DNA from: Sedimentisphaera salicampi
Lineage (GTDB): Bacteria > Planctomycetota > Phycisphaerae > Sedimentisphaerales > Sedimentisphaeraceae
DNA length: 64,000 nucleotides
Assembly: GCF_002117005.1 (NCBI RefSeq)
Contig: NZ_CP021023.1
Location: 2,108,001-2,172,000 of the forward strand
Reading direction: 5' to 3'
The translations under genes and the position numbers were made by a program. Under the pieces are notes generated by a model that had not been told where the DNA came from, searched no databases, and saw nothing but the letters and a program-made list of their open reading frames with translations. Below, piece by piece: positions 2,190-44,265 of this stretch. Positions within the stretch are counted from its first letter, which is position 1, and each line of letters opens with the position of its first letter.

Positions 2190-2254
2190 AATTATCACAA
2201 GCCTGCATAACCTGCCGGCAGCTTCGTTTTACCTTCAGCATAATTATGAAAACC

Positions 2255-2290
2255 AACCCGCCTGAGAAACGCTCAAGCGGGTTTTCTTCT
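2255..2290 (+). terminator. Intrinsic terminator after the EF-G-like gene
   Basis: A 12-bp stem (2255-2266 with 2272-2283, one mismatch) with a short loop is followed by a T-rich run. It lies 66 bases after the stop codon of the EF-G-like gene. Confidence 0.75.
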
Positions 2291-2380
2291 TTTATAATCA
2301 CGCACAGGTAGGCAGCAGACGCTGAATAATACTCAGAAATTGCACGGATTTTTTCTGGCCTGTGGTGAGTGACAGAGTAG

Positions 2381-2490
2381 CTCGGTTTAAATATTTCGTA
2401 TCGTGAAGTTGCTGCGTAATACTAAACACAATCAGAGCCGTGCGTGGACTCCGCCTGCGGTGGATTGCTCGTGGCAAAATAATCAGCGGG
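2381..2490 (+). repeat. Dispersed intergenic repeat, family A copy 1
   Basis: This block begins CTCGGTTTAAATAT and runs through GCTGCGTAATACTAAA and AATCAGAGCCGTGCGTGGA into a CCGCC-TGC-GG hairpin word and TGGCAAAAT. Close relatives occur at 35012-35090 (reversed), 55762-55835, 57851-57938 and 60331-60405. The whole 2295-2557 interval has no credible gene; the short open frames there are readings of this repeat. Confidence 0.8.
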
Positions 2491-2557
2491 CTAAACAAAG
2501 CGGACGATCTGGACTCGGTCAGCGGAACTATAAAAAGCAGAACCTAAGAGACAAAGA

Positions 2558-3217
2558 TCACCTTTCAAGCTTCAGCTGATATTTAATATGCAATGCTGTC
2601 TGCCTCGCAAGGATTTCATATCCTTTTTTTGTATAATGCACATCGCCGGGGCCTTTAAACAACTGTTCAGGAAAGAGATTTGTCATAGCATGGAGATCAT
2701 TAACAGGTATATTGTGCTTTCTTACAACTTTCATTGCAGTTTTATTATATTTAATCTCATCACCCTTAAATCGTCCCGCTTCACCCTCAGGGACCACTGT
2801 TGTAGTTGCCCATATAAGCTTTGCCCCAGTCTTCTCGAGCCTGCAAACAAGCCTTTCGAGATTTTCTTCGTATTGCTCAAGCGAATTTGTAATCTTGCCG
2901 CCTATTTTGTCTCTATTACCCTGCTCATTTGATTCAGGATTTCGATAACATAAATCCCACAGTCCCCAGTTGAAATGTATTAAGTCCCATTTTGTATCAC
3001 CCAGCCAGCTTTCAAGCTTTTCGACTCCTCTGGTTGTCGATCCGGCATTACCCTGATTGTGCGTAACACTTGCCGCATCCTCAAGAAGGTCTTTAACGTG
3101 AGGGGTGTAGCCGATGGATATAGAATCACCAATTACTAAGACCTTCGCAAGATTGTCTTCTGCCGCAATGACAAAAGTACAGGCCAATAAAAATGCGATA
3201 AACGTTTGTTTCGTAAT
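2558..3217 (-). CDS. Secreted SGNH/GDSL-type hydrolase
   Basis: Probable esterase or acyl hydrolase of the SGNH superfamily. Block I is seen as VIGDSISIGY with the nucleophilic serine, a glycine block as NQGNAG, an asparagine block near HFNWGLWD, and the catalytic Asp-His block as GDVHYT close to the C terminus. A conventional start is TTG at 3187, but that begins inside the hydrophobic segment. Reading upstream in frame gives a basic residue followed by a full signal peptide starting at an ATT codon at 3217, preceded by AAGGTG, so I place the start there with moderate confidence. It is the last gene of a leftward operon, 24 bases after a glycosidase gene and downstream of a fucosidase, which suggests removal of acetyl or other acyl decorations from a fucose-containing polysaccharide. 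Substrate is inference. Confidence 0.75.
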   Translation of the reverse strand: MTKQTFIAFLLACTFVIAAEDNLAKVLVIGDSISIGYTPHVKDLLEDAASVTHNQGNAGSTTRGVEKLESWLGDTKWDLIHFNWGLWDLCYRNPESNEQGNRDKIGGKITNSLEQYEENLERLVCRLEKTGAKLIWATTTVVPEGEAGRFKGDEIKYNKTAMKVVRKHNIPVNDLHAMTNLFPEQLFKGPGDVHYTKKGYEILARQTALHIKYQLKLER

Positions 3218-3241
3218 ATCACCTTTACTTTCAAAAAGAGG

Positions 3242-4732: not shown

Positions 4733-4784
4733 CTTAGATCCTGCCCTATATCTCACTTAGAAATGTTATCACGCTTTCATCCCC

Positions 4785-5924
4785 TTATGAAGGACTCTTC
4801 TGCTTTGGAAAACCATTCTTCCTGATATATTTACCCACTTTATGCAGCGTATTTACATCCTGCTTGTCAAGAGAGCCGTCCGGTAAAGGTGCAATATTCA
4901 ACAGAAGATTGGCATCATATTCAGCGGCATATTTCAGATTATCCAGTACTGAATTAAAACCTCTGTGATTTCCATCATGCTTTTTGGTATATCCCCAGCC
5001 AGCAATAGCTGTGCATATCTCAAAAGGCTTTCCGGCTGCCTGTTTTTCTTTAACCTTCTTCTTATTATTTAGCCAGTGAATCTCGGGTGAATAATAATCC
5101 TCTTGGCCGTTATATCCCCATTTTGCTGTAATCAAACATTGAGGCTGGATTTTACGGATCAGCTTGTAAGTGTCATCAACTCTAAACTTCTCAATAGGCC
5201 CGCTCATAGGAACGCCGTGGCCGTCAAGCCAAATGCTGGCTATAGGACCATATTGAGTAAGCAGTTCTTCAAGCTGCTGATGCATATATTCTACATAAAT
5301 ATTTAAATCGTGCTCCTTGCCGTATTTGTAATACGGTTCAGGCTCATGATATCTTGGGCGTGCAAAGCTGCCCCAATTATCATTATTAGGAGCATGCGGA
5401 TGACGCCAATCCCTTCCGTGAGTGAAGTAAAGGCAAAGCCCAAGCCCTTTTTTATCACAGGCTTCGGCAAGCTCAGCTACAAGATCTCTTTTTGCAGGTG
5501 ATTTAACGCTGTTGAAATTAGTTGATTTTGTGTCAAACAAACAAAAACTGTCGTGATGACGCGTTGTGATGTTCACATACTTCATCTCAGCACGAAGAGC
5601 TAGATCAGTTATCTCATCAGCATCAAAGTTTTCAGCAGTAAAGCGTTTTATAAGCTTCTCATATTCTTTGACATGTATCTTTTCTTTTAGCTGCACCCAT
5701 TCGCCCCTGCCAAGCAGACTGTATAACCCATAGTGAAGGAACAGGCCAAACTCCGAGTTTCTAAACCAATCCATTGCAGAATTATGAGGTTTGGCAGAGT
5801 AATTTTGAGCAAAATCTTTCAGGTATGAAGGTGCTGAAGTATTGAACTGCCCCCTCGATAACGCTGGCAAACCAATAAGCCCGGCAGCGCCCATTATTTT
5901 AGCAAATTCTCGTCTGTTAATCAT
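4785..5924 (-). CDS. Alpha-L-fucosidase (GH29), Tat-exported
   Basis: Glycoside hydrolase family 29 enzyme that releases L-fucose with retention. The N terminus carries a twin-arginine signal (RREFAKIMG then a hydrophobic stretch), so export by the Tat system is likely. Typical GH29 landmarks are WFRNSEFGLFLHYGLYS near residue 55, the TTRHHDSFCLFD segment, and SIWLDGHG, where the aspartate is the nucleophile by family analogy. At 379 residues it covers the catalytic barrel but lacks the C-terminal beta-sandwich of longer members. It heads a leftward operon with the glycosidase and SGNH hydrolase downstream. An inverted repeat AACAGG-N14-CCTGTT at 5952-5977 lies in the leader and could be a regulator site or hairpin. 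Confidence 0.9.
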   Translation of the reverse strand: MINRREFAKIMGAAGLIGLPALSRGQFNTSAPSYLKDFAQNYSAKPHNSAMDWFRNSEFGLFLHYGLYSLLGRGEWVQLKEKIHVKEYEKLIKRFTAENFDADEITDLALRAEMKYVNITTRHHDSFCLFDTKSTNFNSVKSPAKRDLVAELAEACDKKGLGLCLYFTHGRDWRHPHAPNNDNWGSFARPRYHEPEPYYKYGKEHDLNIYVEYMHQQLEELLTQYGPIASIWLDGHGVPMSGPIEKFRVDDTYKLIRKIQPQCLITAKWGYNGQEDYYSPEIHWLNNKKKVKEKQAAGKPFEICTAIAGWGYTKKHDGNHRGFNSVLDNLKYAAEYDANLLLNIAPLPDGSLDKQDVNTLHKVGKYIRKNGFPKQKSPS

Positions 5925-5951
5925 TAGTCATCTTTCAATTAATTTGTACAA

Positions 5952-5977
5952 AACAGGATTTTACTTTATTGCCTGTT
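5952..5977 (-). promoter_or_regulatory. Inverted repeat in the fucosidase operon leader
   Basis: AACAGG at 5952-5957 and CCTGTT at 5972-5977 form a perfect 6-bp inverted repeat 28 bases ahead of the fucosidase start. It could be an operator half-site pair or a hairpin; the sequence alone does not decide. Confidence 0.3.
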
Positions 5978-6044
5978 ATATGTTATATCCTAAACCAAGG
6001 TGATTTTTGAGCTCAGAAAGATTTTTTGAATTTTTGGCAAATTC

Positions 6045-6384
6045 ATTAACGAAAGATCAGCGTGAATTAGTGCTTTGGCAAACCCCTAAGTGCATCTTAG
6101 AGCTGCTCAGCGGCTGAAAAATATCTCCCCTCCGCTTCCTCCGTGTAAAAAAAATATCTACAACATCAGAGCAGGATTATGTATTGCGGTGGCAGCGTAC
6201 TTGCCGGCAGATAGCCTTCCCTCATTTATGAAAATGTTTTCTCTGATGTAAAAGAGAGTTAAACATCGGAGGAAGCGGAGATAACGGAGAGGATGTGATA
6301 AATTAGACAGGATTAACAAGATTTACAGGATGAGATAAAGATAGTGGCAGAGCTGCAAGTAGCAGAGTAGCGAGTAGCTCGTGG
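6045..6384. repeat. Composite dispersed repeat (families B and C), left part
   Basis: The segment contains a family B piece (wording such as TTAGAGCTGCTCAGCGGCTG) and a family C piece (ACATCAGAGCAGGATTATG to GAGATAAAGATAGTGGC). Bases 6217-6348 are identical over 132 bp to 60493-60624. The repeat is cut at 6384 by the IS3-family element and continues at 9739. No gene is visible in 5925-6384. Confidence 0.85.
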
Positions 6385-6452
6385 TGTCTAGTCCTGAGTA
6401 TAGTTGACAGATATCAGAATAGATGTTAATTAAATTTCAGGAATATTTATGA

Positions 6453-8341
6453 GTGCGCCAAGCAAAGCTAATATGTGCAAGTCGGACAATCCGGCACGGG
6501 TAAAGGCTAACCACCAGCCCGGGACTGAACCGGACGTATTGCGAGGTAACGAGTAATGCGAAGCTTCGGTAAGGGCAGTTTGTCAGCCGTAACGCAAGTG
6601 AAGGTATCGAGCCCCGAAATAATCCTTATTTCACTGGGTCAAGGGTTTCATTTCCTGGAAACCAGTATCGATGCGCACGTTAAAGGTGAGTGCGTAATCG
6701 ACGTGGCGGGGTCTAAGTCCGCAGCGGGCAAACAAACTGTACATATTGGAACTTGGGAGAACCGAAGCGTTCCGAAAGGAAGCCGCCAAATAGCCGAAAA
6801 AGTGATGAGGCGGTATGGCGTTTCGGTAGTCGGACTAACCCATAGTAGAGGTGTAGCAGGGGTAATGCCCTGTGGGGCTATAAGCTTACTCGAAGGGGTT
6901 AGCGGTTTAACGCAGAGAGGTGAATTTTAACAATGCAATACCCTGAGATTGGAAAAACATTTGAGAAGTTGCTTCTCATATCCGCTCGCGCCCGAAGGGA
7001 GCGAGGATTCAAGTTTACGAGCCTTGCTCATCTACTTGATGAAGAATACCTTCGGGATTGCTACCAGAACCTTAACCGGAATAAGGCGGTAGGAATTGAC
7101 AATGTAAGCTGGCAGGAATATGGTATAAATCTGGATGAAAATCTCCGGCGGCTTGTCGATAGGCTCAAACGTAAAAAGTATAAGCCTAAACCGGCAAGGC
7201 GGGTATATATACCCAAGGACGATAAAGAAACCCGTCCACTGGGTATATCTGCGATAGAAAGCAAGATAGTAGAAAGCGGGATTGCCCGCATACTAAACTG
7301 CATATATGAGCAGGATTTTCTGGATTGTTCTTACGGTTTTCGCCCGAACAGGAACTGTCATCAGGCGTTAAAGACACTTAACGACCTGATAACATACCAG
7401 CCGGTAAACCATATTGTCGAAGCCGATATTAAAGGCTTCTTCGATAATGTTGACCACGATAAGCTGCTGGAGTTTATTCGAATAAGGATAAATGACACGG
7501 CATTATTAGGGCTGATTGGTAAGTTTCTCAAAGCCGGTTATGTTGACGATGGTCAACTAATAGTATCGCAAAAGGGTACTCCGCAAGGAAGTATTCTAAG
7601 CCCGATACTGGCGAATATATTCCTGCACTATGTACTGGACGAGTGGTTTGAGGCTACGGTTAAAAGCCATACGACCGGTTACTGTGAGCTTGTGAGATAT
7701 GCGGATGATTTTGTATGCGTAGTTCGCTACGCAGACGATGCCGAACGCATTGAGCAGGCGTTGAAGAATAGGTTCAATAAATACGGATTGGAAATACATC
7801 CTACAAAGAGCCGCCGGATAACATTTGGTCGCTTTGAGAAGGAAAACGCCGTAAAAGAGAGCCGAAAGCCTAACACGTTTGACTTTTTAGGATTTACGCA
7901 TTACTGCGACATCTCACGCCGAGGCAAATTTAAGCTCGGGCGTAAGACAAGCGGAAAGAAATTCTCTGCCAAGTGCAGGGAGATGAATGACTGGCTCAAG
8001 GCGATACGAAACCACGTCAAGACTAAAGACTGGTGGAAAGTTCTTGTTGCCAAACTGCGAGGCCATTATCAGTATTACGGCGTAAGTGAGAACTACGCCG
8101 GTATCAGGAGTTTTTACAAACTCACGATAAGGATGGTACGGAAATGGCTGAACAGGCGTAGCCAAAAGCGAAAGATGAGTTGGGAACGGTTTAGTAATTA
8201 CCTTGAACACTATCCTTTGCCAAAACCCGAAATAGTGCATAGCTTTTACAATCGGCAAGTGTAAAGTGAGTTAAACCGAAGAGCCGGATGTGGGAAATCC
8301 ACAAGTCCGGTTCTGTGAGGGGCATTGACGTTTCCTCACAT
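6453..8341 (+). mobile_element. Group II intron with reverse transcriptase ORF
   Basis: The 5' boundary matches the GUGYG consensus (GTGCGCC at 6453). The first 480 bases are non-coding and hold structured intron RNA domains. The RT/maturase ORF follows, and after it a domain V hairpin is visible: GAGCCGGATGTGGGAAATCC at 8281-8300 with ACAAGTCCGGTTC completing the stem. A domain VI-like stem (GTGAGG with CCTCAC) follows, and the intron probably ends at AT 8341. The 3' end is certain only to a few bases. Orientation is the same as the host IS. Splicing would restore an intact IS3 leader upstream of orfA. Confidence 0.85.
6933..8264 (+). CDS. ltrA: Group II intron reverse transcriptase/maturase
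   Basis: Multifunctional intron-encoded protein of 443 residues that promotes splicing and retrohoming of the surrounding intron. RT motifs are in order: RPLGISAIESKIVESGIARI, SYGFRPNRNCHQAL, EADIKGFFDNVDH, the GTPQGSILSPILANI block, and the catalytic RYADDFVCV. A maturase (X) domain with RGHYQYYGVSENY follows. No HNH endonuclease domain is seen after it, so mobility probably uses an endonuclease-independent route. A second RYADD occurs seven residues after the first (RYADDFVCVVRYADD); the first has the right context for the active site. The start ATG at 6933 has GAGAGGTGA upstream. The reading frame is intact from end to end, so the intron may be active or recently arrived. Confidence 0.92.
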   Translation: MQYPEIGKTFEKLLLISARARRERGFKFTSLAHLLDEEYLRDCYQNLNRNKAVGIDNVSWQEYGINLDENLRRLVDRLKRKKYKPKPARRVYIPKDDKETRPLGISAIESKIVESGIARILNCIYEQDFLDCSYGFRPNRNCHQALKTLNDLITYQPVNHIVEADIKGFFDNVDHDKLLEFIRIRINDTALLGLIGKFLKAGYVDDGQLIVSQKGTPQGSILSPILANIFLHYVLDEWFEATVKSHTTGYCELVRYADDFVCVVRYADDAERIEQALKNRFNKYGLEIHPTKSRRITFGRFEKENAVKESRKPNTFDFLGFTHYCDISRRGKFKLGRKTSGKKFSAKCREMNDWLKAIRNHVKTKDWWKVLVAKLRGHYQYYGVSENYAGIRSFYKLTIRMVRKWLNRRSQKRKMSWERFSNYLEHYPLPKPEIVHSFYNRQV

Positions 8342-8386
8342 TTAATAAATGAAAAAATTAAGTTTATGGATGAAAGGAACTATATT

Positions 8387-8812
8387 ATGTCTACTCGACA
8401 AGACAAAAGACCTACAGGCACTCGTTATAGTGAAGCATTTAAGTTGCAAGTGGTAAATGAGCTTGAATCTGGTAAACTCTCATGTATAAATGAAGCCAAT
8501 ATTCGTTATGGAATAGCAGGAAGCCACACCGTTAAGCGTTGGCTTAAGAAATACGGCCGAAACCATTTAATACCAAAGAGGATACGCGTGGAAAGACCAG
8601 ATGAACATGACCGGTTAAAGCAATTAAAAGCAGAGAACAAAGAGCTGAAAGAAGCTCTCGCAGATGCTTATTTAGAAAAGCTTGTAAGTGATTCTCGATT
8701 TGAAGTTACCTGTGAGCAGTTTGGCTTGGACAGTGAAGAAGTCAAAAAAAAACTAGATACGAAACGGCACACAAGGCTTACAAAAGGGCTTCAGAAAAGG
8801 AAGAAAAAGTAA
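8387..8812 (+). CDS. IS3-family transposase OrfA
   Basis: DNA-binding regulator half of an IS3-type transposase, 141 residues. A helix-turn-helix is visible in TRYSEAFKLQVVNELESGK through AGSHTVKRWLKKYGR, followed by a leucine-zipper-like stretch (RLKQLKAENKELKEAL). The ATG at 8387 is chosen because GAAAGGA lies 8 bases upstream and it is downstream of the intron end; the frame is open further back only because it reads through intron RNA. Near the 3' end a nine-A run at 8744-8752 offers a -1 ribosomal frameshift into the orfB frame, which opens at 8737. OrfA alone normally represses or regulates transposition. Confidence 0.85.
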   Translation: MSTRQDKRPTGTRYSEAFKLQVVNELESGKLSCINEANIRYGIAGSHTVKRWLKKYGRNHLIPKRIRVERPDEHDRLKQLKAENKELKEALADAYLEKLVSDSRFEVTCEQFGLDSEEVKKKLDTKRHTRLTKGLQKRKKK

Positions 8813-9627
8813 CCATAACTGAAATATGCTGCGCATCAGGCATAAGCCGCCAGTATTTTTATAAGACTCGTAAAGTGCGTCAAAAGCAGCTTATTGATGA
8901 GGCTTTTATAATGGATTTGGTAAACCAGGAGCGTTCCTTGCAGCCTCAATTAGGCTGCAGAAAGCTCTTGTCGCTGATATCTGAGGACTTATCAGAAGCG
9001 GGGGTTAGTATAGGTCGAGATCGGTTTTTCGATTTGATGGGCAAGTTTAATAAGCTGATCAAGCCTAAAAGACGCAGCACCTCAACGACTAACAGCCGGC
9101 ACAGGTTTCGGGTCTATAGTAATAAGCTTAAAGATATGAATCTGCAAGGCCCAAATGAGGCAATTGTAAGTGATATAACTTATATACGCACCGATCAGGG
9201 TTTTGTCTATCTTGCTCTTGTAATGGATGCCTTCAGCCGCAAGGTCATAGGTTATGATTGCAGTGATAGTCTTGAGGCCGAGGGTTGTTTAAGAGCCTTG
9301 AACCGAGCATTGAAGCAGATCCCCACCTCAGCAAAGGCGGTTCATCATTCCGATCGAGGCTGCCAGTACTGCTGCAATGCTTATATTGATATGCTCCAAG
9401 AAGCTGGTATTGGTATCAGCATGACAGAAGATAAACATTGTTATGAAAATGCTAAGGCAGAGCGGCTTAACGGAATAATGAAACATGAATATGGTTTGTG
9501 CAATACCTTTGCGAAAAAGGAACATGCCTATGAGGCAGTAAAACAAGCGGTGTTGCTTTATAATACCCGCCGCCCGCATGCAGCATTAGGCTATCGAATA
9601 CCAGAGGCGGTGCACTTGGCAGCGTGA
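8737..9627 (+). CDS. IS3-family transposase OrfB (DDE), made by -1 frameshift
   Basis: Catalytic half of the IS3 transposase with an rve-type DDE fold. The acidic residues are seen in SDITYIRTDQGF, HHSDRGCQY and NAKAERLNGIMKHEYG. The frame opens at 8737, overlaps orfA, and has no good independent start; the GTG at 8875 falls inside conserved sequence. The likely product is therefore an OrfAB fusion starting at 8387, produced by slippage on the A-run at 8744-8752. The fusion junction would read KKKTRYETAHKAYKRASEKE. The frame is intact, so the element may still be competent. Confidence 0.85.
   Translation, partial: RSQKKTRYETAHKAYKRASEKEEKVTITEICCASGISRQYFYKTRKVRQKQLIDEAFIMDLVNQERSLQPQLGCRKLLSLISEDLSEAGVSIGRDRFFDLMGKFNKLIKPKRRSTSTTNSRHRFRVYSNKLKDMNLQGPNEAIVSDITYIRTDQGFVYLALVMDAFSRKVIGYDCSDSLEAEGCLRALNRALKQIPTSAKAVHHSDRGCQYCCNAYIDMLQEAGIGISMTEDKHCYENAKAERLNGIMKHEYGLCNTFAKKEHAYEAVKQAVLLYNTRRPHAALGYRIPEAVHLAA
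8744..8752 (+). other. Slippery A-run for programmed -1 frameshift
   Basis: Nine consecutive A bases near the end of orfA contain an A-AAA-AAA heptamer in the orfA frame. A -1 slip leads directly into the open orfB frame. Known IS3 elements use this type of site. Confidence 0.7.
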
Positions 9628-9680
9628 TATATTCCTCCGTTCCGGTCGCCCTTCGGGCTCCCTCCACTACGGAATATATC
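9626..9680 (+). terminator. Hairpin at the 3' end of the IS3 element
   Basis: GATATATTCC (9626-9635) and GGAATATATC (9671-9680) are perfect inverse complements. Between them lies a second GC-rich stem (GCCCTTCGGGC). The structure overlaps the orfB stop and precedes the right terminal repeat. It may end transcription or protect the element from readthrough; there is no long T-run. Confidence 0.5.
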
Positions 9681-9738
9681 GTTAAATCGTAATAGAAAAG
9701 AGAAAAGAAAAGTGTCAACTTTAAACCAGGACTTGACA

Positions 9739-9905
9739 GGCAAAATCATTAGTGAGAAATTAGTGCCGATTAGCGGCTTAAAATCTTTCTCATATTCAAT
9801 AATCCTGTAGATCCTGTAAATCCTGTCTAAAAAAATAAAACTCCGTCTCTTCCGAATCATTAGCGAAAAATTAGTGTTGATTAGTGGCTGAATATCTAAG
9901 CGTCC
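9739..9905. repeat. Composite dispersed repeat (family B), right part
   Basis: This continues the repeat interrupted at 6384. It holds two family B pieces (9741-9781 and 9857-9893, CATTAGTGAGAAATTAGTG and CATTAGCGAAAAATTAGTG) separated by short-word sequence such as GATCCTGTAAATCCTGTC. From 9905 to 10060 there is only an AT-rich leader ending in a GGAG ribosome site for the next gene. Confidence 0.75.
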
Positions 9906-10060
9906 TTCGTGGTTTAATAAGACTTTTTCAAAAAAATCGGCGGAAATTTTATTTTTTCCTTGAATTCTCCCCTCAAATTCGGTAAGTTCAGTCCGGAAAG
10001 GGCAACTGGCGTTATTTGGGATAAGGTTAAAATTTATTAATTTTTTATCTGGAGATAAAT

Positions 10061-11398
10061 ATGTGTATTCTTAGAGTTTCGGTTATCGCTGCTCTTGCTG
10101 CAGCAGGCATTGCATTCGGTTTCGCCGCAGGCGACGGCACGGCAAACAACCCATACCAGATTTCCACCCCCGACCACCTTGAAGCGGTGAACAACGACCT
10201 CTCCGCCCATTACGTTCTGAAGAATGATATCGACCTTTCGGCCAGAACCTACGACCGGGCTGTTATCGCTCCTGATACTGATTACACCGATTCGGATTTC
10301 AACGGCAGCCTCTTTTCCGGCTCATTTGATGGGGCAGGTTATAAGATTCTGAACCTTACAGTTGACACTTCAAATGTAACAAAAGATTATCCCCGATATC
10401 TCGGCCTTTTGGGAAAAATAGATGGCGGCGAAGTTCGAAATCTCGGAATTGAAAATGCCCAAATAACTGGCGGCGATAATTCAAGATATCTCGGCGGCCT
10501 GTGCGGATATAATCGGGAAGGCACAATCACAAACTGCTATGCGACAAGCGATATTTCAGGCTTTGTTTATCCCGGCGGCCTGTGCGGATATAATGATGAC
10601 GGCATAATAACGAACTGCTATGTAACAGGCTCTGTTTCGGGTGGCGATAATTCTTATTATCCCGGCGGCCTGTGCGGATATACTAGTGGCACAATCACGA
10701 ACTGCTATGCAACAGGCTCTGTTTCGGGAGGTGATAGACTTGGCGGCCTTTGTGGATGGAATTCGAACGGCACGATCGAAAACTGCTATGCCACCGGCTC
10801 TGTTTCAGGCGGCGATGATTCTCATCGTCTCGGCGGCCTGTGCGGATTTAATTCAGGTACAATCGCGAGCTCCTATGCGACCGGCTCTGTTTCAGGAGGC
10901 AGCCATCTCGGCGGGCTGTGCGGATACAATTATGAAGGCACAATCAGGAACTGCTATGCGACCGGCTCTGTTTCAGGAAAAAGAAATCTCGGCGGCCTGT
11001 GCGGAGTGAATTTAGGCACAATTACAAGCTGCTTCTGGGATAAAGAGGCAAGCGGGATTGCCTACAGCTATGGCGGAACGGGGATTACGACAGCCCAGAT
11101 GCAGACTCTGGACACATTTACCAGTGCCGGATGGGATTATGTAAACGAAGATACTAACGGGCAGATGGATCTCTGGTATCAGCATGCGGGCGAATATCCA
11201 AAGCTTTTCTGGCAGGCGATCCCGGGCGACATCAGCTATGACGGATACGTCGGCGAGGCTGATATGATTATTATGGCAGAGCAGTGGCTTCAGGCTCCGC
11301 CGGAACAAACCCGCCTTGAAGCAGATTCCAACTTCGATGAATACGTTGATATTCTCGATTTTGCGATATTTTCAGAAAATTGGCTTTTAGAAAACTAA
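10061..11398 (+). CDS. Secreted GLUG-repeat protein with dockerin-like C terminus
   Basis: Extracellular or surface protein of 445 residues with an N-terminal signal peptide (hydrophobic core ALAAAGIAFGFAAG). Residues of roughly 145-330 contain about seven GLUG-type repeats of some 27-33 residues built on GGLCGYN...GTITNCYATGSVSG, a beta-helix-forming repeat often found in surface adhesins. At the DNA level the repeats are also similar, so unequal recombination could change their number. The last 55 residues (GDISYDGYVGEADMIIMAEQ to the end) form two calcium-loop-like repeats resembling a dockerin. No cohesin is seen in the window. RBS is GGAG at 10051-10054. The biological role is not known; attachment or polysaccharide contact is a guess. 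Confidence 0.8.
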   Translation: MCILRVSVIAALAAAGIAFGFAAGDGTANNPYQISTPDHLEAVNNDLSAHYVLKNDIDLSARTYDRAVIAPDTDYTDSDFNGSLFSGSFDGAGYKILNLTVDTSNVTKDYPRYLGLLGKIDGGEVRNLGIENAQITGGDNSRYLGGLCGYNREGTITNCYATSDISGFVYPGGLCGYNDDGIITNCYVTGSVSGGDNSYYPGGLCGYTSGTITNCYATGSVSGGDRLGGLCGWNSNGTIENCYATGSVSGGDDSHRLGGLCGFNSGTIASSYATGSVSGGSHLGGLCGYNYEGTIRNCYATGSVSGKRNLGGLCGVNLGTITSCFWDKEASGIAYSYGGTGITTAQMQTLDTFTSAGWDYVNEDTNGQMDLWYQHAGEYPKLFWQAIPGDISYDGYVGEADMIIMAEQWLQAPPEQTRLEADSNFDEYVDILDFAIFSENWLLEN

Positions 11399-11424
11399 TT
11401 TTAATATTTATTGAAAGGAATCCA

Positions 11425-11892
11425 ATGTTTTTAGTTAAGGACACCATAGAGCAAAGGGATGAACTGATAAAGTCTCTGGAAGATTTAGACACTGCTGTTG
11501 CTGTTGTGATAGCGGCTGCGCATTTCGAATGGACCCTAAGGCGATGTATTCTCGCTTTGGGAACAAATCCCACAAAGGAAATAAAGGACGAAGAAGGGGC
11601 TTTGTATAAGTGCTGCGGTCTTGATGGGTACAAAGATGCGTGGAAGGAAGAAGTTAAAAATCAAACAGGGGAGAACCTTGCAGAAGTTGTCAGCTCTTGG
11701 GAAGAAGTTCGTAAGGCATTTGAACTTAGAAACAGATTAGTGCACGGCTCAGGCGGGAGCACTGGAAAAGAGTATGGAAGGGATAGAATTGATGTTTTGC
11801 TTAAATCAGCGAGAGAATTGACCGACTACGCTGAAAAGCATGGCAAGAAGATTTACGGGAATAATATTGTAAGAAAAGAAAAACGCGAATAA
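11425..11892 (+). CDS. HEPN-like domain protein
   Basis: Small, mostly helical cytoplasmic protein of 155 residues with the segment FELRNRLVHG, which matches the Rx4H-type signature of HEPN domains (Arg-Asn...His). HEPN proteins are often RNases in toxin-antitoxin or defence systems, though many are inactive helpers. No partner nucleotidyltransferase (MNT) gene is adjacent. An open frame extends back to 11380, overlapping the previous gene, but ATG at 11425 has GAAAGGA at 11413-11419 and is preferred. It sits 26 bases after the GLUG-repeat gene, so co-transcription is possible. The function is not recognisable from sequence beyond the domain. Confidence 0.6.
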   Translation: MFLVKDTIEQRDELIKSLEDLDTAVAVVIAAAHFEWTLRRCILALGTNPTKEIKDEEGALYKCCGLDGYKDAWKEEVKNQTGENLAEVVSSWEEVRKAFELRNRLVHGSGGSTGKEYGRDRIDVLLKSARELTDYAEKHGKKIYGNNIVRKEKRE

Positions 11893-11912
11893 TTCACATA
11901 ACCCAAAATAAT

Positions 11913-12030
11913 CAGCTAAAATTAGCGGCTAATAAATCCCGTCTAAAAAATATCCCCTTAGTGAATCTTAGAGCTGCTTAGTGGCTGAAATATCTCAGCG
12001 GAGATTAGCGGCGAAATCTTAGAACTCTTC
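11913..12030. repeat. Dispersed intergenic repeat, family B copy
   Basis: The wording TTAGCGGCTAATAAATCCCG, then AAAATATCCCCTTAGTG, then TTAGAGCTGCTTAGTGGC recurs with few changes at 49310-49430 and in reverse at 34770-34860. Confidence 0.8.
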
Positions 12031-12078
12031 ATGGCAGCTTTGCCGGAAAATATAGACGCACACATGGCCCTTTAAGGA

Positions 12079-12105
12079 TTGAATTTTTGCATTAATGATT
12101 ATAAT
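12079..12105 (+). promoter_or_regulatory. Candidate promoter of glmS
   Basis: TTGAAT (12079-12084) and a perfect TATAAT (12100-12105) are separated by 15 bases, slightly short. No glmS ribozyme core was recognised between this site and the start codon. Confidence 0.45.
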
Positions 12106-12152
12106 GCTAACTGCGTTATGATTATTTGTTCATTTTTTTTCGGGAAACAGAT

Positions 12153-14000
12153 ATGTGCGGAATAGTAGGATATATAGGCAGTAAGCCTGCCCAGCAGATA
12201 CTTATAGATGGGCTGAAAAGGCTTGAATACCGCGGCTATGATTCAGCAGGCATCGGCCTGCATGGCGGAACAAAAATAAAGATAACCAAGCAGAAAGGCC
12301 GGATTGCAGGTCTCAGCGAGTCTCTCCCCCGAGATAACCCCATCGAAACTGTGGGCATCGGCCACACCCGATGGGCTACTCACGGCGAACCTAACACGGT
12401 AAACTCGCACCCGCATCTCGATTATTCGGGCAAAATATCCGTTGTGCACAACGGGATCATTGAAAATTACGGCGCTTTGAAGAAGTTCCTCATCGAAAAG
12501 GGCTGTGAATTTAAGAGCCAGACCGATACAGAGGTAATAGCGAATCTAATCGGATACTTCTACGAACAGGAAACCGACTGCGAGCAGGACTGCTTCGAGT
12601 GGTCTGTGCAGAAGGCTCTCAATCAGGTTTACGGAACATACGGGCTTGCTGTGATGTGCAGCGATTATCCCGATGTGATTGTTGCAGCGAAGAAGGGCTC
12701 GCCTCTGCTGATTGGTGTGGGCGACGGGGAGAATCTGATTGCCTCGGATGCCTCTGCTATTGTTGAACACACAAAGCAGGTTATATATCTCGAAGATGAT
12801 GAGATGGCGATCGTTGAAAAAGATGACGTTACCATCAAAACCATCCACAACAAACGCATTGAAAGAGAGCTCAAGGAGATTGATTTCTCCATAGAAGAGA
12901 TAGAGCTCGGCGGATACGAGCATTATATGCTCAAGGAAATATTCGAACAGCCAGATGCGCTTTCAACCTGCCTCAAAGGCCGGCTGGATATGAACAACTA
13001 CAAAATTATCCTCGGCGGAATCGAGAATCTCTCCCGCCAGCTCACAACAGCAAAACGCTTCATCCTCACCGGCTGCGGAACTGCCTGGCATGCCTGCCTT
13101 GTGGGCGAGTATCTCATGGAAAGGCTTGCCAGAACGCCTGTTGAAGTGGAGTATGCAAGTGAGCTGAGATACAGAAATCCAATTATCGAGGAGGGAACGG
13201 TAGTGATAGCGGTGAGCCAGTCCGGCGAAACCGCCGATACTCTCGCAGCTATTGAGATGTGCAAGGAGCGCGGGGCCACTGTCCTCGGCGTTGTTAATGT
13301 GGTGGGTTCTACGATCGCCCGCACAACCGATGCCGGAGTTTATCTCAGGGTTGGCCCGGAGATCGGTGTTGCCAGCACGAAGGCCTTCACAGCTCAGGTG
13401 GCAGTGCTTACGATGATGGCAATCGAGCTTGGCAGAAGGCGCCATCTGGACAATGCAAGAACCGAGCAGCTGATTACAGACCTCAACAAAATACCGAACA
13501 TCATCAATGATGTGCTCAAATATTCCGATATGATAAAGGATATCTCCAAAGAATGCGGCGACCGCGAAAACTGGCTCTTCCTCGGCAGGGGATACAACTA
13601 CCCGACAGCCCTTGAAGGGGCTCTGAAGCTCAAGGAGATTAGCTATATCCACGCCGAAGGCCTGCCCGCTGCTGAGATGAAACACGGGCCGATTGCACTT
13701 ATAAACGACGGTATGCCCGCTGTTTTCATCGCCACGCGCTGCTCAAATTACGATAAGATAATCAGCAACATTGAGGAAGTGCGTGCAAGGGGCGGGAAAA
13801 CAATCATTATCGCAAATGAAGGCGATGAGGAAATCGAAAGATACGCAGATTATCTGATTCGGATTCCGAATGTGGATGATGCCCTCGAACCGCTGGTTGC
13901 GGCGATTCCGCTTCAGCTGCTCGCCTACCACTGCGCAGTGCTGCGCGGGCTGGATGTGGATAAGCCCCGCAACCTCGCCAAGAGCGTTACTGTGGAGTAA
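12153..14000 (+). CDS. glmS: Glutamine-fructose-6-phosphate aminotransferase
   Basis: Makes glucosamine-6-phosphate from fructose-6-phosphate and glutamine, the first step toward UDP-GlcNAc for cell envelope and glycans. The start is set at ATG 12153 so that the protein begins MCGIVGYIG; after Met removal the cysteine is the N-terminal nucleophile of the glutaminase domain. An in-frame ATG at 12126 is therefore rejected. The glutaminase domain fills about residues 2-220 (GHTRWATHGEPN, NGIIENY), followed by two SIS sugar-isomerase domains (TGCGTAWHA, SQSGETADT, ASTKAFTAQ, and the C-terminal RGLDVDKPRNLAKSVTVE). Length 615 is standard. A nitrilase-family gene follows 28 bases later. Confidence 0.97.
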   Translation: MCGIVGYIGSKPAQQILIDGLKRLEYRGYDSAGIGLHGGTKIKITKQKGRIAGLSESLPRDNPIETVGIGHTRWATHGEPNTVNSHPHLDYSGKISVVHNGIIENYGALKKFLIEKGCEFKSQTDTEVIANLIGYFYEQETDCEQDCFEWSVQKALNQVYGTYGLAVMCSDYPDVIVAAKKGSPLLIGVGDGENLIASDASAIVEHTKQVIYLEDDEMAIVEKDDVTIKTIHNKRIERELKEIDFSIEEIELGGYEHYMLKEIFEQPDALSTCLKGRLDMNNYKIILGGIENLSRQLTTAKRFILTGCGTAWHACLVGEYLMERLARTPVEVEYASELRYRNPIIEEGTVVIAVSQSGETADTLAAIEMCKERGATVLGVVNVVGSTIARTTDAGVYLRVGPEIGVASTKAFTAQVAVLTMMAIELGRRRHLDNARTEQLITDLNKIPNIINDVLKYSDMIKDISKECGDRENWLFLGRGYNYPTALEGALKLKEISYIHAEGLPAAEMKHGPIALINDGMPAVFIATRCSNYDKIISNIEEVRARGGKTIIIANEGDEEIERYADYLIRIPNVDDALEPLVAAIPLQLLAYHCAVLRGLDVDKPRNLAKSVTVE

Positions 14001-33379: not shown

Positions 33380-34087
33380 ATGAAAAGAGTTGCTTTATTT
33401 TTGTTCACTGCGTTTTTTGCGCCCGCCCTGTGTTATGGAGGTTTATTCCAAGCCCATTTCAACGACGGCATAAACAGCGAATACTGGAGCATAAATCAGA
33501 ATACCGGCATTTACTCAGTTGATGACACTCACGGAGATATAAGGCTTGAAAAAACCGGCACTGCCCAGCCTGGAATGAATTTAGTGGAGATTAAGCTCAA
33601 TCTTTCGAAGGTTTCGCTTATAGGGGATACCATCCCGGGGGATTTTGAGGCGATTATCAATTTCTCTGAAGCCGTTTTGCCGGGGCCGGGTCTTGATCAG
33701 GTGGAGCTGCATACAGCATTTACAAGCGGCCAATACTTCTTTAACGTTCGCGATAACGATTCAGGCACACAAAACGTTCACGTTTGGGACGGCCAAATCA
33801 GAGGCGGATTCCCAACCCCCGCCGCAGCGGGGACTTTGAGAATCGTGAGGCAGGCGGAAGTTATTACTGCCTTCTTCGACGACAGCCTCGTTTATCAGAA
33901 AAGTTTCGTTACCGCAAACCTGAACTCGCTCAGCTTCACTCTTCAGAATAATCTCGGCTCAAACGACCATACAAGCGTGATTTTTGATGATTTCAAGCTG
34001 AGCGGCGAGTATGTTGTTCCAGAGCCGGCAGGGATTTGTCTGTTTTCGGCAGGGCTTGCTGCTCTTCGGCGGCGAAGAAAAGCATAA
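33380..34087 (+). CDS. PEP-CTERM secreted protein
   Basis: Exported protein of 235 residues: signal peptide, a beta-rich body resembling laminin-G or concanavalin-type folds (FQAHFNDGINSEYWSINQN, SVIFDDFKLSG), and a C-terminal sorting tag VPEPAGICLFSAGLAALRRR. The tag marks it for an exosortase that is not in the window. Its tag DNA differs from that of the array at 61-63 kb, so it was not part of that homogenised cluster. Function unknown. Confidence 0.85.
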   Translation: MKRVALFLFTAFFAPALCYGGLFQAHFNDGINSEYWSINQNTGIYSVDDTHGDIRLEKTGTAQPGMNLVEIKLNLSKVSLIGDTIPGDFEAIINFSEAVLPGPGLDQVELHTAFTSGQYFFNVRDNDSGTQNVHVWDGQIRGGFPTPAAAGTLRIVRQAEVITAFFDDSLVYQKSFVTANLNSLSFTLQNNLGSNDHTSVIFDDFKLSGEYVVPEPAGICLFSAGLAALRRRRKA

Positions 34088-39125: not shown

Positions 39126-39156
39126 TTGAATTTTCTTATTCTAACAATTAGAATAA
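39126..39156 (+). promoter_or_regulatory. Promoter of the secretin operon with a perfect inverted repeat
   Basis: TTGAAT (39126-39131) and TAGAAT (39149-39154) are 17 bases apart. TTATTCTAA-CAA-TTAGAATAA (39136-39156) is a perfect 9-bp inverted repeat covering the spacer and -10 box, an operator candidate. Confidence 0.6.
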
Positions 39157-39219
39157 AGTAGGCTTGAAACGGATTTCAGGCAGTTTTAGTTTTATATTTC
39201 GCTTTGAAGGGTTCATATT

Positions 39220-40752
39220 TTGACTTCGAGGCTCATTTTCATTTTATCCGCAGCGATTTTTATATGCGGCTGCGGAAGCGAGAGTTTCATAACAGACGAT
39301 GCCACTGAGTTTGAATCGAAGGTTTTATTAGAAGAAGCCTCACGCATCGACGCAGATTCGTCTGTTAAAAACCAATTGCCTGAGATTTACGAACAGGAAC
39401 CTGAGATTATCCAGACATCTTCAGGCACTAAGGTGGTTTATTTCACAAAAAACCAGCCCCCGAATGTGCTTGCAGGGCTTCTGAAAAATCAGATGAAATG
39501 TTCGGCAAACCCCTCCAGCTCCACCAACCAGATCATTATAAGCTGTAAAAACAAGGCTCACGCAGAGGAAACAATAAGCTTTCTCAACAGCGTTGATGTT
39601 CCGCCGGTGCAGATAAAGATAAGCTGCCTGCTTATCGAGCATTACGCAGACCTTACGATGGACAGGGAAACCACTGTACACATTGGCGAGCTCTTCGGCA
39701 CCGATATAACTCTAAGCGGAAAACAAGACGGTGGAGACTATATCCCTAACTTCCCCGGCGCTTCTCTCCGCGAGCCGGACAGAGCCGATTTAAGTCTTGA
39801 TCTGGGATTCGAAAACGGGGCAATAGGCGATTCAGATTTTGTGCGAGTGGTAGTGGATATGCTCGAATCGAGGGGGTATCTCAAGGTAATGATGAACCCC
39901 GAGCTTGAGGTGGTTTCAGGCCAGAAGGCCACATTCAAATCCCGCGAGCAGGTGCCTACAATCCGCGTTATAACCGAAAGAAACAGAGAACCGTACAATC
40001 TCACCGAATATATCTGGGTTGAGGACTATCTGGAAGTTGTCCCGCATCTGTATGCAGACGGAACTATAGGCGTTAAAACAAAGGTTCTTATGGGCTCAAA
40101 ATCCACGCCGGAAGGTGTAGTTCAGCAGAGGATTATTTCCAAGAAGGGCATTGATATCGGTGAAAACCGAATCAAACCCGGCCAGAGCCTTATTATTGGC
40201 GGGTTCAAAAAGGCCGAAAAGGTTTCTGTAATCAGAGGCTTCCCCTTCCTCAAAGATATACCTGCCGTGGGGCTTTTATTCTCGAGCAAGGATTTTGAAG
40301 AGCGGGCAAAGGAGATTACTTTTATCATTACTCCTTCCATCTCAAGCCACGGCGAACCTTACGACGAGATGCTCAAAAAGGTCAGAGAGAAGCTCGATGA
40401 CCACGTAACCGATTCGGAAATCACCAGAATCATCGAAAGGATGATGATTGATCCGTTCCAGAATGAGCTCGAGCAGAGGGAGGTAAAATCGCTCAAGGAC
40501 GAAGAAGAGCTCAAGAAGGTTAAGGCGGAGATAAACCTTGCAAGGCGTTCCCGCGAGCTGAGGAAACTGCGAGACCAGCTTAATGAGCTCAAGCAGAGGC
40601 TTGAATTTGAGAAGAGCCAGGCCTCAGAAGCTCAGAAATCCGCCGAAGAATACCAGAAAGAAATCGAAAAGGTTGAAGAAATTACCGAAAAGCTCGAAAA
40701 GACAATCAATCCCGAAAAAAAGAAGAGCTCTAAGCAGGGAGGGAAGAAATGA
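39220..40752 (+). CDS. Lipoprotein secretin-domain protein (first of pair)
   Basis: Outer-membrane-type lipoprotein of 510 residues. A lipobox ends at Cys18. The middle has a ring-forming N-domain-like part (TNQIIISCKNKAHAEETISF) and a C-terminal secretin core with KSTPEGVVQQ, GQSLIIGGFKK, and the lip sequence RGFPFLKDIPAVGLLFSS followed by KEITFIITPSI. From about residue 415 to the end lies a long charged coiled coil, unusual for a secretin. Start TTG at 39220 follows GAAGGG. No other type II or III secretion genes or inner-membrane ATPase are adjacent. The next gene is a paralog whose ATG overlaps this stop. Function is unknown; a pore or scaffold in the outer membrane is inferred. Confidence 0.75.
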   Translation: MTSRLIFILSAAIFICGCGSESFITDDATEFESKVLLEEASRIDADSSVKNQLPEIYEQEPEIIQTSSGTKVVYFTKNQPPNVLAGLLKNQMKCSANPSSSTNQIIISCKNKAHAEETISFLNSVDVPPVQIKISCLLIEHYADLTMDRETTVHIGELFGTDITLSGKQDGGDYIPNFPGASLREPDRADLSLDLGFENGAIGDSDFVRVVVDMLESRGYLKVMMNPELEVVSGQKATFKSREQVPTIRVITERNREPYNLTEYIWVEDYLEVVPHLYADGTIGVKTKVLMGSKSTPEGVVQQRIISKKGIDIGENRIKPGQSLIIGGFKKAEKVSVIRGFPFLKDIPAVGLLFSSKDFEERAKEITFIITPSISSHGEPYDEMLKKVREKLDDHVTDSEITRIIERMMIDPFQNELEQREVKSLKDEEELKKVKAEINLARRSRELRKLRDQLNELKQRLEFEKSQASEAQKSAEEYQKEIEKVEEITEKLEKTINPEKKKSSKQGGKK

Positions 40753-42467
40753 GAATCAATAATTCCGCCCTCAAAATTATCACTGCCGTGTTCTCAGCGC
40801 TGCTTCTATTCGGCTGCGGCGAGGTTCTCGACGAGAAGAAAACCGAGATCGAGGCGAAAAGGCTGCTTGAAGCTGCATCGGAGATCAGGAAAGATTTAGA
40901 GGTTGACCGCCCTGTACCAGATAGGATATCCTCAGAAACCGAGATTCAGAAGACATCTCAGGGCGTGAAGCTGTTTTACTATACAAAAAACCATTCTCCA
41001 AAGTATGTAGAAAATATGCTGAAGAGGGAATTCAAGGTGGGAACTGCCCGTCTGGATTCTGCAAATCAGCTTATTATATCCTGCGGAAACGAAAAGCTCG
41101 CCAACGAAATACTCGATTTTATAAAGATTATCGATATCCCGCCTATTCAGGTGCGCATAAACTGCGTGATTGTGGAGAATTACGCAGACCTTACGATGGA
41201 CAAGGAAACGAGAGTTGAAGTGGAAGAGGTATTCAGCTCTGATGTGGCTATGACGCCTAAAGGCGAAGGTCCCAGCTTCCCGGGCGCATCAATACGAGAA
41301 ACTGAACGCTCCGATATGGGTATGGAACTCGGATACTCCTACTCAGAAGACGGCGAAAAGGTTGAAACGCTCGTTGACCTGCTAGTATCGAGGGGGTATT
41401 TCAAGGTTCTGCTTAATCCGACAGTTGAAACGCTCGTTGGAGAGCCGGCTGAGGTTACATCTTCCGAGCGTGTGCCGATAACTAAGATCGTTACAAAGAA
41501 CAATATTCAGCCGTATCAGGAAACAGAATATATCTGGATAGAAGATAAGCTCAAAGTTACCCCATACGTTTATCAGGACGGGACAATAGGGCTCAAAACC
41601 GATATCTCCATCGGCTCTAAATCCACGCCCGAAGGGGTTGTGCAGAGGCCGGTTATAACAGAGAAAAGGGCCACTTTCGGCGAAAACCGCATACGAATCG
41701 GCGAGAGCCTCATTATCGGCGGCTTCAGGAAGATGGAAAATTCCGCTGTAACAAGGGGTTATCCGTTCCTGAAGGATCTTCCGTTTATAGGGATGTTTTT
41801 CTCCGGCGACGACTACGAACAGCGTGCTAAGGAGATTACCATCATCCTTACGCCGAGCATTTCAGGAAACGGTATGCCGTATGAAGAAACAATGGACTGG
41901 GCGGAAAACAAGCTTGAGAGCCGAGTTAAGGATAAGGATTTATCCGAGATCATAGGCGAAACGTTCACAAGCCCGCTGGGAACTGAAAAGCAGTACACCG
42001 AGAAACTCGAAAAAGATGCTGCAGAGCAGGCAATCAGCAGAATAAAAACTGAGATTGATATAAACGAAACTGAACGTGAGCTCAAGAGGCTCAAAGATCA
42101 GGTTCAGCAGCTCGAAACCAAGCTCAAAGACCAGCAGCTGCAATCTCAGGAGGCCAAAAAGGTTAATGCTGAATACAAAGAGAAGCTCAATCAGCTAAAG
42201 CAGCTCCAAACCAAGCTTCAAAAACACCTTGAAGAGCAGAAGGCAAAGGCAAGAAAAGCCCAGCAGCAGAAAGAAGCGGCTCAAAAGAAGGCCAAACAGC
42301 AGGCACAGAAAAACAAAGAGCAGGCCAAAGCCGAGAAAAAACAGAATGAGGCAAATAAGCAGCAGGCTAAGCCGAAGCAGGAAAACAATAAACCAGAGGA
42401 AAAGAAAAAGCCGGCTAAGGATAAAAACAATAACAGCAAAAAGAACAATTCCAATGAGAAGAAATAA
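40749..42467 (+). CDS. Lipoprotein secretin-domain protein (second of pair)
   Basis: Paralog of the preceding gene, 572 residues, starting at an ATGA overlap. The lipobox is LFGC with Cys23. The shared secretin core contains PPIQVRINCVIVENYADLTM, KSTPEGVVQRPV, GESLIIGGFRKME and RGYPFLKDLPFIGMFFSG. The C-terminal 150 residues are a coiled coil that turns into a lysine, glutamine, asparagine and alanine-rich tail (for example QKEAAQKKAKQQAQKNKEQ), probably disordered. The two genes likely arose by tandem duplication and diverged. Translational coupling suggests the products are made in a fixed ratio, possibly as a hetero-oligomeric ring. Confidence 0.75.
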   Translation: MRINNSALKIITAVFSALLLFGCGEVLDEKKTEIEAKRLLEAASEIRKDLEVDRPVPDRISSETEIQKTSQGVKLFYYTKNHSPKYVENMLKREFKVGTARLDSANQLIISCGNEKLANEILDFIKIIDIPPIQVRINCVIVENYADLTMDKETRVEVEEVFSSDVAMTPKGEGPSFPGASIRETERSDMGMELGYSYSEDGEKVETLVDLLVSRGYFKVLLNPTVETLVGEPAEVTSSERVPITKIVTKNNIQPYQETEYIWIEDKLKVTPYVYQDGTIGLKTDISIGSKSTPEGVVQRPVITEKRATFGENRIRIGESLIIGGFRKMENSAVTRGYPFLKDLPFIGMFFSGDDYEQRAKEITIILTPSISGNGMPYEETMDWAENKLESRVKDKDLSEIIGETFTSPLGTEKQYTEKLEKDAAEQAISRIKTEIDINETERELKRLKDQVQQLETKLKDQQLQSQEAKKVNAEYKEKLNQLKQLQTKLQKHLEEQKAKARKAQQQKEAAQKKAKQQAQKNKEQAKAEKKQNEANKQQAKPKQENNKPEEKKKPAKDKNNNSKKNNSNEKK

Positions 42468-42508
42468 AAACCTGAAACTTTGAGCAAGTTTTCTTATGGA
42501 GCGTTCCA

Positions 42509-44197
42509 ATGGATAAATTACTAAAGCTTGGTCTGTTTTTACTGCCATTGCTTCTTCTTGCCGGCTGCAGAGAGAGCTGGCTTGAAGATTCACACGACCC
42601 GCTTTATTTCACTTCCAGGCCGGAGGTGATGCAGAATCCGAATAAATCCGTACCTCTGGCAGCGATTCTGAAATTTGAAACCAATCACCCTGTTACCTCA
42701 CGCGTGTTTCTCAGCGACGGGGAATGCCAGCGTGAGATAATATTCGAGAACGACCAGACATACAGAAAAAGCCTTCCGATAGTGGAGCTCTGTCCGGACA
42801 GAGATTACACCCTCGTGGTTGAGGCGCAGGATAAAATCGGCCAGAAGATAAACTCGAAAGTGATGAATTATCAAAGCCCGCCCCTGCCCGGAGGGAGCGA
42901 AAAGTTTCCAAGAATAACTAATCAGGTGTTTGATGAGTATGCTGTTGAGCCCGGATTGATTCTTTTCAACCCTCGAAGGAGAATACCAACTAATTCCGAG
43001 ACGCTTCAGGGCAGTGAAAGGGAGGATTTCAACAAGAATTTCGGCCTTCTGACAGCAGTGAACAGCGAAGGCGAGCTGGCTTGGTATTATAAAGCCGATT
43101 CACGCATCAGCGATTTCAGGTTTATAGAAAACGGCCATATTGTCTATATCACTCAGGACAACCGGCTCGTGGAGATAGATCTCTTGGGCAATATCGTAAA
43201 TCAGTGGTATGCAAAGGGAAGGCCTGAAGGCGAGGGCGAAGGCGTAGCTGTGGATACGCTTACATTCCATCACAGCGTTAAACAGCTCGAAAACGGCAAT
43301 TTCCTCATTCTCGGGACAGACCGCCGGCGAATCGAAAACTACTACACAAGCTCAAAAGACCCCGATGCCCCAAGAGAGCCGCAGTGGGTGATGGGGGATG
43401 AGATAATCGAATTCGACCGCTGGGGGAAAGTGCATTGGAGATGGAACGCTTTCGAACATCTGGACACTCATCGTATTGGATATATGACCTTCAGCGGATA
43501 CTGGGAGCGAAGAGGCTGGCCGGATACCTTGGACTGGACGCACGCAAACAGCGCAAGCTTTCTGCAAAATGAAAAGGCTGTGCTGCTGAATCTAAGACAC
43601 CAAAGCGCCGTATTGAAGATAGACAAAACCTCCAAGGACATTGAATGGATAGCAGGGGAACACTCCGGCTGGCCGGAAGAAATGAAAAACAAACTCCTCA
43701 CCCTCAAGGGCTCTGAGAGGTGGTTCTGGCATCAGCACGCTCCCGAATTGACTCCGGAGGGTAATCTGCTTGTGTTTAACAACGATAATTTCCGTGCCCG
43801 GCCATTCGACAAACCCGCCCCGCCGGCAGAGATTAGAAGCTGCGCTCAGGAATACCGAATTGATGAGGAAAATAAAACGATAACAAAAATCTGGTCTTCA
43901 AGGAAGGCCGATGATCAAGTGCTTCCAAGCTTTGCTATGGGAAGCGCTGCCGCGCTGCCTGAAACAGGGAATGTCCTTGCAGGATACGGACTTATGTTCC
44001 GCAAAGAGGACTTGAAAGAGGCCTCTTGGGACACAAGGAGGCAGTATATAGGAACAACGCAGATTCGTGAATATACCCGAAGGCCGGAGACGAGGCTGGT
44101 GCGAAAGATTACTCTTACAGCAAGAGACAGCAGCAGCGGAATCGGATGGAGCCTGTATGGGGCGAGGAATGTTAAGAGCCTTTATAAAGGCAAATAA
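42509..44197 (+). CDS. Arylsulfotransferase-like lipoprotein
   Basis: Lipoprotein (LLLLAGC, Cys20) of 562 residues with an arylsulfate sulfotransferase (ASST)-type propeller. Family features are seen as HHSVKQLENGNFLILGTDRR, DWTHANSASFLQNEKAVLLN, QSAVLKIDKTSKDIEWIAGE and WFWHQHAPELTPEGNLLVFN, including histidines that in ASST enzymes form the active centre. Whether it transfers sulfate is unproven. It is 41 bases behind the second secretin gene and has a GGAG site, so it is the third lipoprotein of one operon. Confidence 0.8.
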   Translation: MDKLLKLGLFLLPLLLLAGCRESWLEDSHDPLYFTSRPEVMQNPNKSVPLAAILKFETNHPVTSRVFLSDGECQREIIFENDQTYRKSLPIVELCPDRDYTLVVEAQDKIGQKINSKVMNYQSPPLPGGSEKFPRITNQVFDEYAVEPGLILFNPRRRIPTNSETLQGSEREDFNKNFGLLTAVNSEGELAWYYKADSRISDFRFIENGHIVYITQDNRLVEIDLLGNIVNQWYAKGRPEGEGEGVAVDTLTFHHSVKQLENGNFLILGTDRRRIENYYTSSKDPDAPREPQWVMGDEIIEFDRWGKVHWRWNAFEHLDTHRIGYMTFSGYWERRGWPDTLDWTHANSASFLQNEKAVLLNLRHQSAVLKIDKTSKDIEWIAGEHSGWPEEMKNKLLTLKGSERWFWHQHAPELTPEGNLLVFNNDNFRARPFDKPAPPAEIRSCAQEYRIDEENKTITKIWSSRKADDQVLPSFAMGSAAALPETGNVLAGYGLMFRKEDLKEASWDTRRQYIGTTQIREYTRRPETRLVRKITLTARDSSSGIGWSLYGARNVKSLYKGK

Positions 44198-44265
44198 CAA
44201 CCCTGAAACTGCTTTAGAAGGCAATCCCCTTGCCACTTGCCGCTCGCCGCTTTATAATCTTGGCT

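Follow-up and report, generated by a model that had tools for sequence, protein, structure and literature searches.

Secretins, a superfamily characterised by rings of 12-15-fold symmetry in the outer membrane, are usually understood as components of large machines. The lipoprotein secretins of type IVb pili (BfpB, TcpC and R64 PilN) are encoded in pilus operons, and the N0 domain of secretins is used for GspC docking. Arylsulfate sulfotransferases (ASST) act on small aryl sulfates and phenols, a reaction for which no secretin is needed. The role of pilotins in secretin delivery is covered in passages of PMC10329019, and the Sedimentisphaerales are described, in part of PMC11131199, as rich in polysaccharide-degrading enzymes. 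Here we analyze a window of 64,000 nucleotides from the complete 3.19 Mb genome of a member of this order, Sedimentisphaera salicampi, in which two secretin genes precede an ASST gene. The titles and abstract openings of the literature searched, subscription papers being outside its scope, held no description of this secretin family, and the term 'orphan secretin' was not found there in the bacterial sense.

The three genes lie on the plus strand. SecA (39220-40752, 510 residues, TTG start) and SecB (40749-42467, 572 residues) are lipoprotein secretins that match PF00263 with 86-88 bits (gathering cut-off 27.5) and are 43% identical over their length, and the stop codon of SecA and the start codon of SecB share a 4-base ATGA overlap. 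The third gene (42509-44197, 562 residues) encodes a predicted lipoprotein of the arylsulfotransferase family (PF05935, 216.5 bits against a cut-off of 24.2, E 7e-64). By direct reading, the lipoboxes end in FICGC in SecA, LLFGC in SecB and LLAGC in ASST. On the opposite strand, the 5' flank of the secretins carries genes for a CxxCxxCC protein, a DUF547 protein, PhoH and an Mrp-type ATPase, while rarA/MgsA and a Mem_trans transporter gene follow ASST; a Pfam survey of the genes flanking the pair in the window returned no secretion, pilus or phage genes. The description given in the earlier note, two paralogous and translationally coupled secretins followed by an arylsulfotransferase-like lipoprotein, with no pilus, type II or phage secretion genes adjoining, is thus borne out. 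Further upstream, positions 33380-34087 encode a PEP-CTERM-like protein of 235 residues that falls just below the PF07589 cut-off.

The same note had called the three genes an operon. A promoter-like site (TTGAAT-17-TAGAAT, 39126-39154, plus strand, a consensus match only) precedes SecA, with an 8-bp leader hairpin between the two (39162-39181, plus strand). Both features recur in the sister genome G063, where identical hexamers occupy the matching place (L057 7110-7138) and the hairpin lies at L057 7145-7164. Promoter-like sites exceed the shuffled expectation in the window and sister regions (10 vs 5.3 and 16 vs 7.2, respectively), and terminator-like sites show no excess over chance in either (5 vs 7.0 and 9 vs 7.2). 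The sister genome retains the gene order SecA-SecB-ASST-rarA; it also carries, between SecB and ASST, a hairpin of 14 bp whose 3' arm is U-rich (L057 10452-10488; -18 kcal/mol, z -6.0, equalled in 0 of 200 shuffles), whereas no comparable hairpin is found between these genes in the window itself (z -0.2). The end of the unit is marked by the promoter-like site of rarA (TTGCCA-17-TATAAT, 11 of 12 matches, 44230-44258, plus strand). The word operon has to be qualified, because rarA has its own promoter-like site and because, in the sister genome, the hairpin lies between SecB and ASST.

Each secretin consists of one N-domain, a secretin domain (residues 215-374 in SecA and 212-371 in SecB) and a helical tail, that of SecB being longer than that of SecA, lysine-rich and coiled. 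Past the secretin core, the longest run free of proline and glycine spans 85 residues in SecA and 130 in SecB, and the 3.5-residue hydrophobic periodicity of the tails was equalled in only 2 (SecA) and 3 (SecB) of 500 shuffles. Using AlphaFold, helices were predicted at SecB residues 417-464 and 469-539, with pLDDT values of about 58-81 per block; the underlying alignment held two sequences only and was too shallow, leaving the model outside the tail unusable (mean pLDDT 42.9). A heptad test on the tails of the family was passed by 40 of 70 at a threshold of at most 25 in 500 shuffles. Heptad periodicity and predicted helices together support the earlier reading that both proteins end in long coiled-coil-like tails. 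In an alignment of 50 family members, 66 columns are conserved at 94% or more, nearly all within SecB residues 107-372; conservation is concentrated in the N-domain and the secretin domain, and the tails vary in length and sequence. The lipid cysteine is kept in 45 of the 50. A Pfam scan of 20 members detected PF00263 in all of them and PF03958 (Secretin_N) in four.

A search with SecA at E<=1e-30 gave matches in 102 of 148 genomes of the order, including 45 of the 66 of high quality. Across 294 genomes of the phylum (E<=1e-15), 16 matched: seven from the order, with best scores of 343-1108 bits, and nine others with at most 70.5 bits. In the search of 298 genomes of the class, the best match outside the order reached 75.9 bits. 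As far as sampled, the family thus appears to be restricted to one order, and its absence from 46 of the 148 genomes indicates that it is dispensable. Within genus g11 both states occur: G099, G302, G304 and G308 carry the family, and G122, G169 and G198 do not.

We examined 55 secretin loci, a non-random set picked by hand mainly from the best matches of the class and order searches. In 38 of them rimO divergently adjoins the secretin gene, usually with pgsA next (both assigned by Pfam), and the other side often carries nth and a CAAX-protease gene or rpsB-tsf-pyrH-frr. Of the other 17 loci, several are truncated at a contig end or represent second copies; the window genus, G056, G093 and G289 show a different neighbourhood. 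The recurring neighbours at these loci are housekeeping genes; neither a secretion machine nor transport genes recur. A small conserved protein of 137-175 residues, apparently cytoplasmic, is encoded 3' of the single-copy secretin in family f4 (L066, L084, L085, L088, L091 and L092). It was considered as a pilotin or partner and set aside, given that the six copies inspected have no signal peptide and that it was not found beside tandem pairs; the one copy scanned had no Pfam match. Second secretin copies beside MacB_PCD permeases and a TolC-type OEP gene (L074 and L087) were likewise discarded as a sign of linkage: the genes are convergent, the arrangement was seen in two genomes of one genus, and an OEP is already present.

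The secretin is single at 40 of the 55 loci and tandem at 15. In a tree of 52 sequences and 317 columns, from which frames with a stop codon had been dropped before alignment, the tandem copies cluster by lineage: the window genus, G018, G056, seven f3 genomes, and G105/G289/G182. A tree constrained to unite all downstream copies, as expected from one duplication, was rejected (delta lnL 312, p-AU 3.9e-5), implying that tandem copies arose several times or that gene conversion homogenizes the pairs. A single duplication within family f1 was rejected by the AU test (0.018) and not by the SH test (0.365). From the tree we would therefore speak of several tandem duplications, with no exact number, and keep gene conversion as the alternative. 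The lipid cysteine is absent from the downstream copy and retained in the upstream one in G105, G182 and G334, while G289 has the residue in both copies. This loss in three downstream copies suggests mixed rings; it is no proof of a lipidated partner, since the single-copy members G268 and G194 have also lost the cysteine.

The earlier note had gone further and proposed a hetero-oligomeric pore dedicated to sulfate-related or polysaccharide chemistry. ASST itself looks intact, and its H345, R363 and H410 align with the active-site positions of E. coli AssT; structure 4p04, which we take to be the His436 mutant of AssT, carries an asparagine where ASST has H410, and the residues are likewise presumed to be catalytic. 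As a dedicated system, the trio would use the secretin pair as outer-membrane exit for a sulfated product of the lipoprotein ASST. The genes are indeed adjacent and share a strand in the two genomes of the genus, and ASST-family genes, which the PF05935 model detects in 34 of the 148 genomes of the order, are somewhat commoner where the secretins occur (29 of 102 genomes vs 5 of 46 among the matches listed; Fisher p 0.02, with no correction for kinship or genome size). However, among 298 class genomes a full-length relative of ASST is confined to two, each belonging to the window genus (11 more have partial, weaker matches), and these are also the only two among five genomes of the family, against 102 of 148 order genomes for the secretins. 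Of the two closest ASST genes outside the genus, that of G334 has no secretin on its 10-kb contig, and that of G357 is separated from the secretin by about 7 kb containing rimO, pgsA and further genes, most of them on the opposite strand. Adding the hairpin that separates SecB from ASST in the sister genome and the small substrates of these enzymes, which require no secretin, we consider such a dedicated system very unlikely. Conserved synteny of the three genes stops at the genus, and the trio was rejected as a conserved system. The synteny comparison suggested earlier thus gave a split result, the trio being scattered in relatives and the secretin pair recurring at 15 of 55 loci. A dedication to sulfate or polysaccharide chemistry is not supported, given secretins spread across the order and an adjacent ASST confined to one genus. 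A mixed ring stays reasonable in view of the coupled pair and the recurrent pairing, with a little further support from the three unanchored downstream copies. Judged from sequence, ASST is best read as a periplasmic sulfotransferase that works independently and has come to lie beside the secretins in this genus.

The genome holds five other secretins (L077 to L081). Those of L077, L078 and L080 cluster with T2SS or T4P genes (T2SSE, T2SSF, T2SSG and PilM), and since each such platform found has an adjoining secretin, no local platform is left without one. The L081 secretin (1188 residues, 9060-12626) lies beside an ORF of 2938 residues (146-8962; G000:C1 about 1051146-1063626 for the region), of which a tested part of 1989 residues has a beta-helix match; no machine genes were identified beside it. 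At L079 (8728-13394; G000:C1 about 2793728-2798394) a different, short secretin of 407 residues is directly followed by genes for an HlyD-type adaptor, an ABC ATPase and a MacB-type permease; the run looks like a MacAB-type exporter in which a secretin takes the place expected for TolC. Among 16 loci examined, four (G000, G063, G055 and G074, from three genera; also L147, L148 and L149) have a secretin immediately 5' of HlyD, the G055 contig ending after the ABC gene, and no adjoining secretin was found for the other 12 HlyD relatives. In the part of the tripartite-system review PMC8277102 that was consulted, the one passage matching 'secretin' is unrelated.

Drawing on the observed domains, lipoboxes, occurrence, rimO linkage, copy history and absent local machine, we favour, with fair though not strong confidence, the reading that SecA and SecB belong, as a tandem pair, to a family of order-specific, self-anchoring orphan secretins and form a gated outer-membrane channel. 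Ring formation, outer-membrane location, the periplasmic position of the tails, replacement of a pilotin by the lipid anchor and hetero-oligomerization are what we infer from these observations. Each protein has a single N-domain, which would lie in the periplasm, a secretin domain of the standard barrel/gate type and a C-terminal tail of 130-200 residues. The N-terminal lipid anchor would bring each secretin to the outer membrane unaided, so that a separate pilotin would be dispensable for delivery. Alone or together, SecA and SecB would most likely assemble into a large gated channel; the coiled-coil-like tails should sit in the periplasm, where they may encircle or lengthen the channel entrance and connect it with the cell wall or with a partner in the inner membrane whose gene lies elsewhere. 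The two copies would probably make mixed rings or a regulated pair, a mixed ring being reasonable because SecA and SecB are coupled without a local machine and pairing recurs at 15 of 55 loci, and secretin copy number seems to have shifted repeatedly in evolution. In its most specific form, the proposal has two diverging subunits that are translated together, of which one carries a lipid anchor and the other at times does not, building a mixed outer-membrane ring with a periplasmic coiled-coil crown; this would have arisen through several independent tandem duplications within one order and would work with no pilus or type II machine. In this form the proposal is tentative and we regard it as rather doubtful.

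The pair might instead serve as an alternative outer-membrane secretin for a T2SS or type IV pilus platform encoded elsewhere. The genome does encode such platforms, two distinct types of T2SS secretin occur in E. coli according to passages of PMC10329019, and among the matches listed, with genome lists compiled by hand, GspD is present in 82 of 102 genomes having the family vs 20 of 46 lacking it (p 1.6e-5, without correction for kinship or genome size), as might also be expected if the pair served a type II system. We nevertheless hold this to be unlikely, since every platform found here already adjoins its own secretin, 20 genomes have the family with no GspD match at E<=1e-60, family f2 shows the reverse (GspD present, window family absent), and the single N-domain means that an N0 domain is not evident. 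Less likely still is a structural tether or spacer between outer membrane and cell wall, in which a lipidated ring would fix the outer membrane, basic coiled tails would bind or span peptidoglycan and conduction would be secondary: the long tails, the charge- and lysine-rich tail of SecB and a housekeeping neighbourhood in which transport genes do not recur agree with it, but it is the pore domain that is conserved (66 columns) and the tails that vary, and 46 of the 148 order genomes do without the family. By analogy with the secretin that precedes HlyD, ABC and MacB genes in this genome and three others (in G055 as far as the ABC gene), SecA and SecB could be the outer-membrane part of a MacAB-type exporter encoded elsewhere. 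This is highly improbable: no HlyD or MacB gene adjoins the window pair, and the window family shows no particular closeness to that secretin, which the family profile scores at 115-139 bits vs 217-226 for the T2SS and T4P secretins. The latter scores are inflated because these two served as outgroups within the profile, and the small tree does not resolve the branching. The channel reading corrects a tempting, unsupported link between the secretin pair and sulfate chemistry. A secretin that anchors itself, has a coiled tail and no machine, and is both widespread and repeatedly duplicated within one order of polysaccharide-degrading planctomycetes raises the question of whether a secretin can work alone or as a two-subunit ring.

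Compared with known systems, ASST shares PF05935 and the aligned active-site residues with E. coli AssT, the PAPS-independent arylsulfate sulfotransferase (3elq, 4p04), and differs from it in its lipobox, in a single-sequence match of only 2e-9 and in being confined to one genus of its family. The secretins share PF00263, with conserved gate and barrel motifs, and one NolW/Secretin_N-like domain with those of T2SS, T4P, Tad and T3SS and with phage pIV, and the family profile matches solved GspD, PilQ, RcpA, InvG and pIV chains. Nonetheless, SecA and SecB fall far below the curated NCBIfam cut-offs for GspD (TIGR02517, 52 and 83 bits vs 351), PilQ (63-72 vs 284), SctC (TIGR02516, 55-58 vs 238) and MshL, and PilN (TIGR02520) gives no match at E<=0.01. 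They also differ from GspD, PilQ, RcpA, SctC and pIV in their coiled C-terminal tail, built-in lipid anchor and tandem pairing, and in having no adjacent machine genes: GspE/F/G genes are absent beside them and do not recur at relatives' loci, and no pilus genes, as expected of PilQ or RcpA, lie beside the window pair. With BfpB, TcpC and R64 PilN they have in common an N-terminal lipid anchor on the secretin itself; unlike these, they have no pilin, ATPase or platform gene nearby. Lipoprotein-mediated delivery to the outer membrane also recalls the secretin-pilotin pairs GspD-GspS and RcpA-TadD, whereas here each secretin would be its own lipoprotein, and a paralogue without the anchor may, in three genomes, be delivered by its lipidated partner copy.
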